DNA of 55,405 nt from NCBI GenBank assembly GCA_016182095.1, contig JACOXY010000013.1, positions 1 through 55,405 of the forward strand, written 5' to 3'. Positions 4,753 through 51,677 of this stretch are shown here, in pieces (the first letter of the stretch is position 1; each line of letters opens with the position of its first letter). The stretch comes from Candidatus Liptonbacteria bacterium. GTDB taxonomy: Bacteria > Patescibacteriota > Minisyncoccia > UBA6257 > JACOXY01. The notes under the pieces were generated by a model that worked only from the letters and a program-made list of their open reading frames with translations, did not search any database and was not told where the DNA came from. The translations under genes and the position numbers were made by a program.

Positions 4753-6594
4753 TTAATCTACTGAAGCGCGGATGCGGCGAACTCCCGCTCCAACGGCTTC
4801 TTCTTTCAAAATGCGAAAGCGCCCTATCTCTCTAGTGTGGGTTACATGCGGGCCCCCGCAGAATTCTTTGCTATAAGCATCTTCAATCGTTTTGCCGACA
4901 TAATATACGTTTACTGGATCAGGATATTTTTCTTTGAAAAAATACAGCGCGCCGGTTTTTTTTGCCTCCTCTATCGGCATTTCTTTGAAATGCACCGGCA
5001 TATCCCGCGCTATCACTTCATTTACTTCTGTCTCAATTTTTTTAATTTCTTCTGGGGTTAATTTTCTATGGTATGTAAAATCAAAGCGGGTGCGCTCGGC
5101 GGTAATGTCAGACCCCGCCTGATGTACTTCGTTACCCAATATATTTCTCAAGGCTTGTTGCATCAAGTGCGTCGCAGTATGTAGCCGCGTTACTTTCTTT
5201 AACTCTTCCTCATCCCCTGCTTTCAATTCACCCGTATCTAAAATAAGCCCGTGTCCACCGAATTTTTTCTCCAGTCCCGCGCGTGATTTTTCCTGATGCT
5301 TTTGGTATGCTTCATCGAATTCTTTTTCTGTCCGCTCGCTAAAACTGAACCCCCATTTCTCCATCACCATTTTCATCACCTCGAAATCAACTCCGTGCGT
5401 CTCTCTTATCCTGAATAAAATAGACCCGTCAATATCAGCCACATTATTTTTTACAACAACATTTGGTAGCAGCCTTTCAGGATCAACGCCTCCAATAAAT
5501 CGACTATAAAGTTTTTTCAAATCTGCTACGGTTCCAGTCAAAATTTTTGAGTATTTTTCTACCTCATCTTGCATAATACTCATCATTCGATCCCCGTTGT
5601 TAAGCAAATCAGGATAAAAATGCTTATATATATCAATAATTATGGAAACTGGATTCTGAAAAAAATTTTTGTCAGGTCCGGCGCCCACATCAAGATAGTG
5701 GGCCGTGAGAGCTCTCCTTAATAAGCGCCTGGGGATATAACCTCGTCCCTCTTTACCAGGCAAAACACCATCACTGATCAAAAAAACTGCCGCGCGAAGA
5801 TGATCAACGATCAACCTAATTTGACCTATGGGTTTATCTCCTTGAATTTCAATTATCGAATGCATTATTGGCTGCAACAAATCCGTCTCAAAAATATTAT
5901 TCTTCTCCTGCGAAACCATAACCAGACGTTCCAGTCCCATGCCCGTGTCAACACCCGGGGTCTTTAATTTTTCTAATTTTCCGTTTTTACAATAATATTC
6001 ATTAAAGACAATGTTCCAAATTTCAACGCCGTTTATATAAATTTCTGTGGTCGGGCCGCACGGGCCTTCGTTCCCGGTCGGGCCCCAAAAATTGTCTGTT
6101 CTGCCAAATTTTTTTATGCTTTTTACTCCCAGCGATTTCCAAATCTCTTCGGATTCAGTATCAGCAGGAACTCCATCACCACCTTCAAAAACGCTTACAT
6201 AATCTATCGCAAGCCCCATTTCTTTGGTAATAAAATCATGCGCATAGGTTATCGCCCCTTTTTTGAAATATCCGCCCTTGGGCGAAACTGGCTCGCCGGG
6301 CTTATAGCCAAACGAAAAATTCCCTAGCATTTCAAAAAAAGTAAGGTGTGACTCATCCCCCACCTCGTCAATGTCGGAAGTGCGGAATGACTTTTGAATA
6401 GAAGCGGTGTTTTTGCTTCCAAAATCCTTCATTGGGTCAGCTTCGCCCGTGTAATACTTCTTAAACTGCTGCATCCCAGCGGTCGTTAAAAGCACCGACG
6501 GGTCGTCAGGAATAAGTGATGACGAAGACACGATAGTATGTCCGCGTTCTTTGAAAAAGGCGAGAAACTTTTTACGGATTTCTTCTGAAGACAT
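4753..6594 (-). CDS. alaS: alanyl-tRNA synthetase (no C-Ala domain)
   Basis: MSSEEIRKKFLAFFKERGHTIVSSSSLIPDDPSVLLTTAGMQQFKKYYTG; editing-domain TATHLMQQALR and CGGPHVTHT motifs. Confidence 0.97.
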   Translation of the reverse strand: MSSEEIRKKFLAFFKERGHTIVSSSSLIPDDPSVLLTTAGMQQFKKYYTGEADPMKDFGSKNTASIQKSFRTSDIDEVGDESHLTFFEMLGNFSFGYKPGEPVSPKGGYFKKGAITYAHDFITKEMGLAIDYVSVFEGGDGVPADTESEEIWKSLGVKSIKKFGRTDNFWGPTGNEGPCGPTTEIYINGVEIWNIVFNEYYCKNGKLEKLKTPGVDTGMGLERLVMVSQEKNNIFETDLLQPIMHSIIEIQGDKPIGQIRLIVDHLRAAVFLISDGVLPGKEGRGYIPRRLLRRALTAHYLDVGAGPDKNFFQNPVSIIIDIYKHFYPDLLNNGDRMMSIMQDEVEKYSKILTGTVADLKKLYSRFIGGVDPERLLPNVVVKNNVADIDGSILFRIRETHGVDFEVMKMVMEKWGFSFSERTEKEFDEAYQKHQEKSRAGLEKKFGGHGLILDTGELKAGDEEELKKVTRLHTATHLMQQALRNILGNEVHQAGSDITAERTRFDFTYHRKLTPEEIKKIETEVNEVIARDMPVHFKEMPIEEAKKTGALYFFKEKYPDPVNVYYVGKTIEDAYSKEFCGGPHVTHTREIGRFRILKEEAVGAGVRRIRASVD

Positions 6595-16770: not shown

Positions 16771-17650
16771 TTCTTATTTTCCCGCTTAAAGTTCTTAACT
16801 CTTTCAGAGCCGCCCTGCCCTGCTCTTCTTTGGAAACAATATCCGTTGGCCCCAGCCCCGGAGGATTACCGTGCCACCTGTAATCGTTTTCCATGAAACT
16901 TACGCCCTTCCCGGGAATGGTGTGGGCGATTATTACCGTTGGCCTTTCGTAAATGGCATGAGCCTCCCGCACCGCATCAACAAACTGTGAAATATTATGC
17001 CCATCAACCTCTAATACATGCCACTTAAATGCCTCGTATTTATCGCGCAAAGAATCAAGCGGCATTACATCCTCCGTAATTCCATCAATTTGGATGTTAT
17101 TACGATCAATAATCGCCGTTAAATTATTTAAATGATTTTTTCCCGCGAACATCGCTGCCTCCCATAGATTTCCCTCATCATGCTCGCCATCGGAAAGCAT
17201 CGCGTAAATGCGGTATCGCTTTTCGTCAAGCTTTGCCGCCAAGGCCATGCCGATCGCCTGTGAAAGCCCGGATCCTAATGGACCGGACGTAGTTTCAAGG
17301 CCGGGGAGCGATGATCTATGCGGGTGGCCCTGCAGACGAGAATTTATTTTTCTTAGAGTTTTTAGCTCACTAATCGGAAAATATCCGGAGTGAGCCATGG
17401 TCGCGTATTGAACGGGACAAATGTGGCCGTTTGAAAGAACTAAACGGTCGCGTTCGGGCCAATTTGGTTTCTTGGGATTATGATTTAAGACATGAAAATA
17501 CATGGCCGTAAAAATATCAGCCATGCCAAGCGGTCCAGCAGAGTGACCGGACTTGGCCTCTAAGAGCATTTCAATAATCGACTCCCGGATTTTATTCGCC
17601 AGTTCTTCCAGATGTTTTAATTTTTTTTCATGCAACGACTCCATTAACAT
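16757..17650 (-). CDS. transketolase N-terminal subunit
   Basis: SGHSAGPLGMADIFTAMYFHVL...DGEHDEGNLWEAAMFA thiamine-PP motif; RPTVIIAHTIPGKG. Confidence 0.93.
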   Translation of the reverse strand: MLMESLHEKKLKHLEELANKIRESIIEMLLEAKSGHSAGPLGMADIFTAMYFHVLNHNPKKPNWPERDRLVLSNGHICPVQYATMAHSGYFPISELKTLRKINSRLQGHPHRSSLPGLETTSGPLGSGLSQAIGMALAAKLDEKRYRIYAMLSDGEHDEGNLWEAAMFAGKNHLNNLTAIIDRNNIQIDGITEDVMPLDSLRDKYEAFKWHVLEVDGHNISQFVDAVREAHAIYERPTVIIAHTIPGKGVSFMENDYRWHGNPPGLGPTDIVSKEEQGRAALKELRTLSGKIRSEHQ

Positions 17651-17676
17651 TATGATAACATTTTTTGAAGTTTATA
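17587..17676. repeat. 90-bp direct repeat, copy 1 (5' end of tktN)
   Basis: GGATTTTATTCGCCAGTTCTTCcagaTGTTTTAA...GAAGTTTATA, matched at 18467-18556 with about 4 differences. Confidence 0.92.
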
Positions 17677-18431: not shown

Positions 18432-18466
18432 CCCCGACCACATCAGCACTTTAATAATAGTCTGGC

Positions 18467-18556
18467 GGATTTTATTCGCCAGTTCTTCTAAGTGTTTTAA
18501 CTTTTTTTCATGCAACGACTCCATTAACATTATGATAACATTTTTTGAAGTTTATA
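18467..18556. repeat. 90-bp direct repeat, copy 2 (displaced tktN 5' end)
   Basis: See 17587-17676; the TA pair lies between the copies. Confidence 0.92.
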
Positions 18557-19591: not shown

Positions 19592-20233
19592 TTATGCTAT
19601 TTTGTCAATTAACTCCATATAGGCTGTTTTTGGATTTTCACTCCCAAAAATAAAGTTTCCGGCCACAAATAGGCTAGCTCCGGCTTCTTTCGCGAGTTTC
19701 GCTGTTTCTAAATTAACGCCACCGTCAATTTCTATAATCACGTCTGATTTTTTATTTTTTAAAATTTTTATTTTTTCTAAAATTTCCGGCTTAAACGACT
19801 GCCCCGAAGGTCCCGGGGAAACCGCAAGCATTAAAAAACCGTCAAAATCATCAATGTGAGCGAAAATCCGCTCTACGGGAGTTGCTGGATTTATCGCTAA
19901 AAAAATCTCTGCATTATATTTTTTGTATTTTTCAATTAAATAAACCAAGTCGCCCATAGATTCCAGGTGGACAATGAGCCGCTTTGCGCCGGCCCGAAGC
20001 CACCGGTCAGCCTGAACTTCCGGATCTTCTACCATTAAATGAACTTCGAATCGCGGCGGGTTCGCGCCAAAAAATTCAGCAAACTCCTCCGGATTATTCC
20101 AGCTCACATGCGGGGTGAACTTGCCGTCAGAAATATCAACATGCATCATGGGAGCAAATTCGCTCGCCAAAGCTATTCGTTTTTTTATACACTCAAAATT
20201 TTCGCAATTGATTGATGGGATTATTTGATTCAT
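19592..20233 (-). CDS. rpe: ribulose-phosphate 3-epimerase
   Basis: MNQIIPSINCENF...MMHVDISDGKFTPHVSW, EVHLMVEDPEVQADRWLRAGA, EIDGGVNLETAKLAKEAGA; start placed at 20233, right at the repeat edge. Confidence 0.92.
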   Translation of the reverse strand: MNQIIPSINCENFECIKKRIALASEFAPMMHVDISDGKFTPHVSWNNPEEFAEFFGANPPRFEVHLMVEDPEVQADRWLRAGAKRLIVHLESMGDLVYLIEKYKKYNAEIFLAINPATPVERIFAHIDDFDGFLMLAVSPGPSGQSFKPEILEKIKILKNKKSDVIIEIDGGVNLETAKLAKEAGASLFVAGNFIFGSENPKTAYMELIDKIA

Positions 20234-20543
20234 AGGAGTGTGAAATACGAACAAAATCAATTGAGCGGAGCGAATTTGGCAAATATTCAAGGCGCGAGGA
20301 GGAGATTAGTAGCTTAAGCTACAGCTCCGACGAGTCCCGTTAGAAAGTCATCTTTCTAACGGGACGAGCAACGCTGAATATTTATCAAATTCGCCCGCCC
20401 CTCCGGGGAAGCTAAAAAATGGGTGATTTTCTTCGTTACTCTTCCTTAATGTATTCTACGAATACAATTTCGTCGTCGTGCCTTGAAATCATCTCATTTT
20501 TTAGCTTCTCAAGCTGATTTATGTTCGTATTTCACACTCCTAT
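20232..20543. mobile_element. TIR-bounded structured repeat element, copy 1 (312 bp)
   Basis: Perfect 22-bp TIR ATAGGAGTGTGAAATACGAACA / TGTTCGTATTTCACACTCCTAT; nested stems; homologous to 51359-51677 and 26317-26441. Confidence 0.85.
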
Positions 20544-26202: not shown

Positions 26203-26316
26203 TATGGAAAAGAACTGTATTTTACTACCATAAGTATAACAGATTACATTGCTTCTGTCAAGTCAAAACAGCCGCTTTTGTTACGCCTGCAGTTCACACC
26301 GTCATTGACATTCTGC

Positions 26317-26441
26317 AATGTATTCTCCGAATACAATTTCGTCGCTCGCCTCGCTCACGCCTTGGCGAAGCGGGCCATGCCTTGAAATCATCTCATTTTT
26401 TGGCTTCTAAATTTGATTTATGTTCGTATCTCACGCTCCTA
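26317..26441. mobile_element. TIR element, half copy (one arm only)
   Basis: AATGTATTCTCCGAATACAATTTCGTCG...CCTTGAAATCATCTCATTTTTTGGCTTCTAAATTTGATTTATGTTCGTATCTCACGCTCCTA matches the right half of the two full copies. Confidence 0.85.
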
Positions 26442-43235: not shown

Positions 43236-44465
43236 ATGAAGATACTCGCTATTGAAACCAGCTGTGACGAAACCGCCATTGCCATCATTGATTACAACGA
43301 GAGAAAGCGCGGGGTGCGCATTCTCGCCAACATCATTTCCTCGCAAATAAAACTTCACGCTAAGTTCGGAGGTGTTGTTCCTAACTTGGCACGGCGGGAG
43401 CACGAGCGCAATTTACCCATTGTTTTAATACAAGCGCTAAAACAAAGTAAATTGCTAAATTCAAAAATGAAAAATCAAAAATCAAAAATACAACTTAAAA
43501 CTAAAAACTTAGGAAAAATTCTTGAGCGGGAATCGGAACTTTTAGAACTGGTTGTAAAAAAAATTCTTCCCATTGGTGCACCTAAAATTGATGCCGTAGC
43601 AGTAACGCACGGTCCCGGACTTGCTCCCGCTCTTTGGGTTGGAATAAATTTCGCGCGCGCACTTTCATATATATGGGAAAGGCCCTTGATTCCCATAAAC
43701 CATATGGAGGGCCATATTTTTTCAGCTATGCTGAAAAAATATGGAAACTCTAAACAATCACAAAGCTCAAAAATCAAAATTCAAAAAAACCATACCCCTG
43801 CCTGCGCAGGCAGGCTATACCCCATACCCTATCCTGCTTTGGCCCTGCTCGTTTCCGGCGGACACACAGAACTAGTGCTTATTAAAAAATTGGGAAAATA
43901 TAAAATCGTGGGGGAAACGGTGGATGATGCGGTAGGAGAGTGTTTTGATAAGGTGGCACGAATTTTAGATCTCCCCTACCCCGGAGGACCGGAGATCTCC
44001 CGCCTCGCAGACACATTCAACATTAAACATTCCGCATTGGATATTAAATTGCCCCGCCCCATGATCCACTCTAAAGATTTTAATTTCAGTTTTTCGGGGC
44101 TGAAGACTGCCGTTTTATATCTTACAAAAGATCTAAAAGATAGTTATCTCCTCCCCGAAGTAAAAGCGGCGATTGCAAAAGAATTTCAGGATGCGGCAGT
44201 AGAAGTCCTTGTTAAAAAGACGATGGCCGCCGCAAAAAAATATAAAGCAAAAACAATTATTTTAGGCGGCGGTGTTGCGGCCAATTCTTTGCTCCGCAAA
44301 GAATTGAGTGTCAGGTGTCAAGTGTCACGTGTCAAGTGTTTATTGCCGTCACCGGCAATAACTGGAGACAACGCCCTCATGATCGCGCTTGCCGCCGCAA
44401 TAACAGGGAAGATTATAAAAAGGCCTCAAGCTCTGAAAGCCGAGGCGAATTTAAGATTATCTTGA
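43236..44465 (+). CDS. tsaD: tRNA N6-adenosine threonylcarbamoyltransferase
   Basis: MKILAIETSCDETAIAIID; VPNLARREHERNLP; VTHGPGLAPALWVGINFA; GGGVAANSLLRKEL. Confidence 0.96.
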   Translation: MKILAIETSCDETAIAIIDYNERKRGVRILANIISSQIKLHAKFGGVVPNLARREHERNLPIVLIQALKQSKLLNSKMKNQKSKIQLKTKNLGKILERESELLELVVKKILPIGAPKIDAVAVTHGPGLAPALWVGINFARALSYIWERPLIPINHMEGHIFSAMLKKYGNSKQSQSSKIKIQKNHTPACAGRLYPIPYPALALLVSGGHTELVLIKKLGKYKIVGETVDDAVGECFDKVARILDLPYPGGPEISRLADTFNIKHSALDIKLPRPMIHSKDFNFSFSGLKTAVLYLTKDLKDSYLLPEVKAAIAKEFQDAAVEVLVKKTMAAAKKYKAKTIILGGGVAANSLLRKELSVRCQVSRVKCLLPSPAITGDNALMIALAAAITGKIIKRPQALKAEANLRLS

Positions 44466-51358: not shown

Positions 51359-51677
51359 TAGGAGTGCGAGATACGAACAAAATCAATTGAGCGGAGCGAA
51401 TTTGGCAAATATTCAAGGCGCGACCTGCCTGCGCAGGCAGGGGAGGAGGTTAGTGCTCGGAGAGCACAGCTCCGACAAGCAACGCTGAATATTTATCAAA
51501 TTCGCCCGCCCCCTTGGGAAAGTTAAAAAATGGCTGATTTCTTCGTTATGCTTCATCCTGAGCTTGCCGAAGGACTCCTCCTCAATGTATTCTCCGAATA
51601 CAATTTCGTCATCGTGCCTTGAAATCATCTCATTTTTTAGCTTTTCAATTTGATTTTGTTCGTATCTCGCACTCCTA
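51359..51677. mobile_element. TIR-bounded structured repeat element, copy 2 (319 bp)
   Basis: 28-bp TIR TAGGAGTGCGAGATACGAACAAAATCAA / TTGATTTTGTTCGTATCTCGCACTCCTA; same nested stems as copy 1. Confidence 0.88.

Follow-up and report, generated by a model that had tools for sequence, protein, structure and literature searches.

Background

What kind of element is the 319-nt palindromic sequence found at positions 51359-51677 of a Candidatus Liptonbacteria contig, and what keeps its stems paired? The window, i.e. the whole stretch of DNA analysed here, comprises 55,405 nucleotides (contig JACOXY010000013.1, assembly GCA_016182095.1) and belongs to a genome, hereafter G000, of 893,105 bases in 23 contigs that is 97.5% complete. 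An earlier note on this sequence had recognised two copies of a structured repeat and had argued that their paired structure is either selected or mechanistically maintained. We report here that the element has greater breadth and more structure than the earlier note gave it. We assign it to a new family of MITE-like foldback elements in which a two-arm fold is conserved, and for which we infer transposition and a role of the arm.

Structure and copies of the element

The sequence at 51359-51677 is a full two-armed element closed by a perfect terminal inverted repeat. The coordinates and sequences first given for it were correct, and its features, together with the other copies present in the window, are the following.

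51359..51677, + strand: full two-armed element copy (the subject of this study), 319 nt
51359..51386, + strand: left terminal inverted repeat, 5' strand of the outer stem, preceded by CC and starting with TA, 100% complementary over 28 nt
51650..51677, + strand: right terminal inverted repeat (28 nt), 3' strand of the outer stem, with TA at its end, pairing with 51359..51386
51393..51508, + strand: arm A hairpin, core GGCGCGA..GGAGGAG..GTGCTC-GGA-GAGCAC..GCTCCGACAAG-CAACG, match of covariance model R1
51520..51642, - strand: arm B hairpin, homologous to arm A and inverted, core GGCACGATGACGAAATTGTATTC..GAATACATTGAGGAGGAG..TAACG on the - strand, R1 match
51424..51441, no strand: nested palindrome CCTGCCTGCGCAGGCAGG placed after GGCGCGA in arm A, also at 43797-43814
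51549..51574, no strand: nested 26-nt insert TGCTTCATCCTGAGCTTGCCGAAGGA in arm B, missing from aligned uninterrupted copies
20233..20542, + strand: second full copy in the window (copy 1 of the earlier note), with nested hairpin CCCGTTAGAAAGTCATCTTTCTAACGGG between ACGAG repeats
26316..26441, + strand: fragment consisting of part of arm B and the right terminal repeat

The ends of the copy at 20233-20542 (arms 20232-20256 and 20519-20543, 25 nt) are 96% complementary. Once nested inserts are removed, the two-armed element measures about 275 nt and contains, in this order inside the outer stem, arm A, a small CCCC/GGGG hairpin and arm B, the two arms (about 95 nt each) being mutually homologous and in inverted orientation. 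The arm core follows the pattern TTCAAGGCGCGA-SGA-SGA ... GA-SGAG-CAACG, and the full arm layout is TTCAAGGC[GA]CGA - SGA - SGA - apical hairpin - GA - SGAG - CAACG. The apical hairpin does differ between the two window copies as first reported (GTAGCTTAAGCTAC versus GTGCTCGGAGAGCAC). Folded as a single strand, 51359-51677 reaches -144.1 kcal/mol (z = -10.8), and none of 100 shuffled sequences was equally stable.

The proposal that loops tolerate nested insertions was right in substance but not in location, as the inserts occupy set places in the internal loops or bulges of the arms and not the apical loops. The copy at 51359, for which a single small palindrome had been mentioned, carries two of them (51424-51441 and 51549-51574). 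The first insert site lies after GGCGCGA on the 5' strand, where CCTGCCTGCGCAGGCAGG is found in both arms of several copies, and the second is the CAA bulge on the 3' strand, used in three different genomes; the 26-nt insert of arm B occurs at the identical position in four other copies. Within element arms, the perfect 18-nt palindrome CCTGCCTGCGCAGGCAGG always follows GGC(G/A)(C/T)GA.

Eleven full copies, together with several fragments or solo ends, were found in G000, where the terminal repeat pattern gave 35 matches versus 0 for the reversed control. In being short, non-coding and present in several copies (11 full ones) with 25-28-nt terminal inverted repeats, the element resembles a MITE. 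Two pairs of direct repeats unrelated to the element were also noted in the window: 2453-2883 and 4757-5187 (77-78%, 2.3-kb spacing), and 17565-17676 and 18445-18556 (91%, 880-nt spacing).

Mirrored changes and covariation

The usual terminal end in G000 is GGAGTGTGAGATACGAAC. Relative to this sequence, a T>C change in the copy at 51359, a G>A change in the copies at 20233 and C17:2812, and a G>T change in those at C7:7980 and C10:39682 are each present at both ends. The earlier observation that end substitutions occur in pairs thus extends to most copy-specific changes, but the copies at C13:97034 and C10:104977 hold a few end changes without a mirror.

A statistical covariation analysis over all genomic copies and their relatives, as the earlier note had advised, gave strong support to paired change. 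It was based on 18 copies, full or nearly so, drawn from six genomes: 11 came from G000 and the remaining 7 from five further genomes of the order. They were aligned after the nested inserts had been taken out, one copy being truncated at its left end. Standard pairs make up 94.6% of the cells of the consensus structure, a percentage biased towards the unslid register, as this very alignment had served to derive the structure. Two-sided changes, which are less affected by this, were counted in 55 of the 108 pairs (173 cells), against at most 18 pairs and 27 cells in slid-structure controls and against means of 26.8 pairs and 50 cells (maxima 34 and 65) in shuffle controls, the latter comparison being inflated by the relatedness of the sequences. 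For this reason, the cross-phylum alignment of arms presented below is the strongest single evidence for kept pairing. Taken alone, the 11 copies of G000 gave 16 two-sided pairs with 44 cells, where shuffling reached no more than 13 and 22.

Distribution and conservation of the arm

A pattern scan covering one genome per species returned 92 stretches, in which a real arm was defined by folding and by a correct 3' strand, the other stretches being coding or chance matches. Within Patescibacteria, real arms were found in Berkelbacteria, Yanofskybacteria, Harrisonbacteria, Portnoybacteria, Buchananbacteria and others; outside this phylum, they were found in Omnitrophota, in Desulfobacula and Desulfobacteraceae (Desulfobacterota), in Verrucomicrobiia (Verrucomicrobiota) and in one gammaproteobacterium. 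Despite the common arm core, the terminal repeats are unrelated between groups (TAGGAGTGTGAG, GAGCGCAGGATTC, GTGTTGCCAACC, CTCATCTCAAAAATA, GTCCCCTCTGTACAAAT).

In the alignment of 42 arms across phyla, 13 of the 16 core pairs changed two-sidedly, with 120 cells versus 42.6 when shuffled. The core contains tandem G.A mismatches, namely G30.A73 (42 arms), A31.G72 (35, plus 7 with A.A), G33.A70 (40) and A34.G69 (40). For the loci that came from the pattern scan, the letters of the 5' strand belonged to the pattern itself, so that the 3' strand alone tests these counts without bias. The pairs between the G.A steps swap between C-G and G-C (S32-S71: GC 22, CG 19; S35-S68: GC 23, CG 19). Arms found by full-element similarity (L003-L084) agree with this conservation of the G.A mismatches. 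The arm core may be a folded single-stranded DNA or RNA site recognised by some protein. We do not claim a standard kink-turn, which would need the G.A steps on the other side of the CAA bulge.

Covariance model R1 detected arms in 47 of 150 genomes of the order (44 of 124 genera), with at least 27 matches in G000 and as many as that, or more, in genome G058. A genome of the same family (G001) had no match to the full element and two R1 arm matches. Convergent arm pairs numbered 61, with a gap of 8-13 nt in 57 of them, and the only divergent pair lies between two neighbouring elements; the Desulfobacula copies consist of a single arm. Searches of plasmid and phage collections gave no match to the element, and a search of the available literature library returned no paper with the motif letters and none joining "miniature inverted-repeat" with Patescibacteria.

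Some further observations concern particular members or neighbours of the family. Loci L066 and L086 (genome G005) have element ends AGACCTCTTGCATAATAAC and one copy of the same arm core. A likeness of some ends to the tRNA T-arm (GGATTCGAACC) is seen in part of the family only. Finally, Desulfobacula G101 (L222, about 1750-1850) has another hairpin repeat that starts similarly (TATGCAAGGCGCAAGAAATGC...) and is possibly a distant relative of the arm; two weak R1 matches (L126:3386 and L150:3006) possibly correspond to this same repeat.

Genomic setting and strand symmetry

All 11 full copies of G000 are intergenic, in all orientations to their neighbours and often starting a few bases from a stop codon; the copy at 51359-51677 is flanked by a short membrane-protein-like ORF and by tRNA-Leu/tRNA-Cys. 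Copies also occur in rRNA genes: the 23S gene of G058 contains two and the 16S gene of G073 one, and the 23S gene of G000 has two at its 3' end. The 23S insertion sites fall in variable regions. When rRNA genes were compared for an empty site, the 16S case alone permitted a guess, that of a 1-2 nt duplication. Hairpin insertion within an rRNA gene, which characterises 23S intervening sequences, was limited to certain copies, namely L170, L132 and L017 (the last at the 3' end of a 23S gene); the copy at 51359 is intergenic and not such an insertion.

This setting brings forward the reading of the element as a structured RNA (a regulator, an attenuator or a hairpin for RNA processing, as in 23S rRNA intervening sequences) whose pairing is selected on the transcript. 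Several copies are indeed located in transcribed rRNA genes and fold with their ends paired, the conserved tandem G.A core resembles an RNA motif, and short unclassified insertions are frequent in the rRNA genes of Patescibacteria (CPR), some of them thought to be cleaved by RNase III (PMC11270868). Most copies in G000, unlike rRNA intervening sequences and such insertions, are intergenic, and the element has neither an ORF nor an intron model. We regard the RNA reading as unlikely, given that the intergenic copies have every orientation to their neighbours and that Rfam covariance models gave no family match even at relaxed thresholds. Moreover, selection on one RNA strand should make G-U exceed A-C in the long stems, and by position no such strand preference is found (G-U 30 versus A-C 26); by cell the counts are 79 versus 40, 32 of the G-U cells stemming from two columns.

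Maintenance of the long stems and of the arm core

Among the double changes in G000, 8 of 14 are transversions without a G-U path. Together with the absence of strand bias, these transversion pairs are explained by template switching from arm to arm no less well than by stepwise selection on RNA. Template switching is known from published work (PMC8794818) as a source of compensatory hairpin changes that creates and maintains hairpins. With this precedent, and with mirrored transversions, ends that are perfect within copies and different between them and no strand bias, one could imagine that template switching or conversion acts alone on the element, with no selected function. We consider such pure homogenisation quite improbable: the G.A mismatches are kept by almost every arm in all these phyla, with C-G/G-C swaps between them, and would be eroded, and the near-constant spacing of the two arms would be left unexplained. 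As homogenisation alone would remove the mismatches, their persistence implies that the arm core is kept by selection. The long stems are probably kept paired partly by template switching at replication, and the arm core by selection. Both halves of the earlier claim, selection and mechanistic maintenance, thus seem to apply, and the claim is borne out by the covariation in full copies and by the cross-phylum arms.

Mobility and search for a partner

Of 26 copies of the single-arm elements of the Desulfobacula type, 25 are bordered by TTA on both sides or by TAA on both sides; such 3-bp duplications are the signature of a DDE-type transposase that targets TNA, and suggest such an enzyme in this relative. 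In Patescibacteria, most ends have a TA flank (28-29 of 40 on each side, some spurious pairs being counted among the 40). Duplications beyond TA were not seen at these ends; as TA is palindromic, a duplication is indistinguishable here from an extended repeat.

The search for an autonomous partner covered the DDE_3, DDE_Tnp_1 and Y1 families in a limited set of genomes. Neither DDE_3 nor DDE_Tnp_1 was detected in G000 or in the other Patescibacteria genomes tested, and no partner with matching ends was found among the DDE_3 and DDE_Tnp_1 loci of 18 genomes. Three candidates were rejected: (i) an apparent element end beside a Verrucomicrobiia transposase, attributed to chance; (ii) a 2.9-kb Desulfobacula interval between two ends, which contains only ordinary genes and two separate elements; and (iii) the four-helix-bundle genes of family PF05635, seven in G000, whose flanks carry other inverted repeats. 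These PF05635 (23S rRNA intervening-sequence protein) ORFs, L088-L094 (C9:2598, C3:39489, C15:1701, C9:43545, C8:6404, C10:36276 and C18:16067), are in several cases enclosed by copy-specific inverted repeats built of degenerate short repeats, and L089 lies inside the 5' part of a 16S rRNA gene.

The least probable reading of all would place the element in the REP/REPIN type, in which a RAYT (Y1) transposase mobilises a pair of inverted palindromes in the form of single-stranded DNA. In its favour, the head-to-head dimer of related hairpins with its conserved spacer resembles REP dimers (PMC3733652) and some copies have no clear target duplications. Against it, a RAYT link was ruled out by co-occurrence (Y1 in 7 of 16 arm-rich versus 6 of 16 arm-free genomes), the arm-rich G058 has no Y1 transposase, the single Y1 gene of G000 has its own unrelated palindromes, long perfect terminal repeats are not a REP trait, and the Desulfobacula relative makes 3-bp duplications. 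That Y1 (RAYT-like) gene (C18:85340-85615, L188) has copies of the palindrome ACTACGGGGTC(T/A)GACCCCGTAGT around and within its ORF.

In a Yanofskybacteria genome (JAUYJF), about 130 nt of identical interior were found on three contigs, at contig ends, with differing outer ends (loci with a shared interior and differing outer repeats: L124, L134, L143 and L173). This suggests recent spread or conversion, and also that the interior and the ends of the element may evolve or recombine separately.

Comparison with known systems and proposed mechanism

With prokaryotic MITEs the element shares its short, non-coding, multicopy and mostly intergenic nature, its terminal inverted repeats and its stable fold, and the 3-bp TTA/TAA duplications of the Desulfobacula relative recall MITEs moved by DDE transposases. 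It differs from them by its two homologous arms of fixed geometry, by a cross-phylum core under unrelated terminal repeats and by an autonomous partner that was not found in the Patescibacteria tested (DDE_3, DDE_Tnp_1, Y1). REP dimers, REPINs and BIMEs likewise have two related inverted palindromes, a structured spacer and compensatory stem changes (PMC3733652), but the arms of the element measure about 95 nt inside long terminal repeats, are not 20-40-nt hairpins with a terminal GTAG or CGTC tag, and showed no RAYT association. ERIC sequences, the intergenic repeat units of enterobacteria, are similarly gene-free palindromic intergenic repeats of 100-300 nt (PMC2759123), with an architecture unlike that of the element.

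We therefore favour, with a probability of about 0.62, a non-autonomous MITE-like foldback element whose stems are kept largely by template switching and whose arm core is kept by selection. The terminal inverted repeats form an outer stem around the two inverted homologous arms joined by the CCCC/GGGG hairpin, and in this scheme the element would be moved in trans through its ends (TA-flanked in Patescibacteria). The arm core would be bound by some protein as folded single-stranded DNA or RNA and maintained by selection, and template switching between arms at the replication fork would largely keep the long stems complementary. A bolder and doubtful extension is that of a phylum-spanning arm module with a tandem G.A core, recognised by its shape and not by its end sequence and fitted into many unrelated terminal repeats. 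An enzyme that works on the folded single strand would then spread the elements, even into the rRNA genes of bacteria without the usual transposases.

The small, reduced genomes of Patescibacteria are thought to be poor in mobile elements. Against this presumed scarcity, about one in three of the genomes sampled from the order carries the element, which also enters rRNA genes. The analysis also separates two often-confused causes of "compensatory" changes, template-switch mutation in the stems and selection on the fold in the arm core. Finally, the conserved arm offers a defined target in the search for the protein that may bind or move the element.
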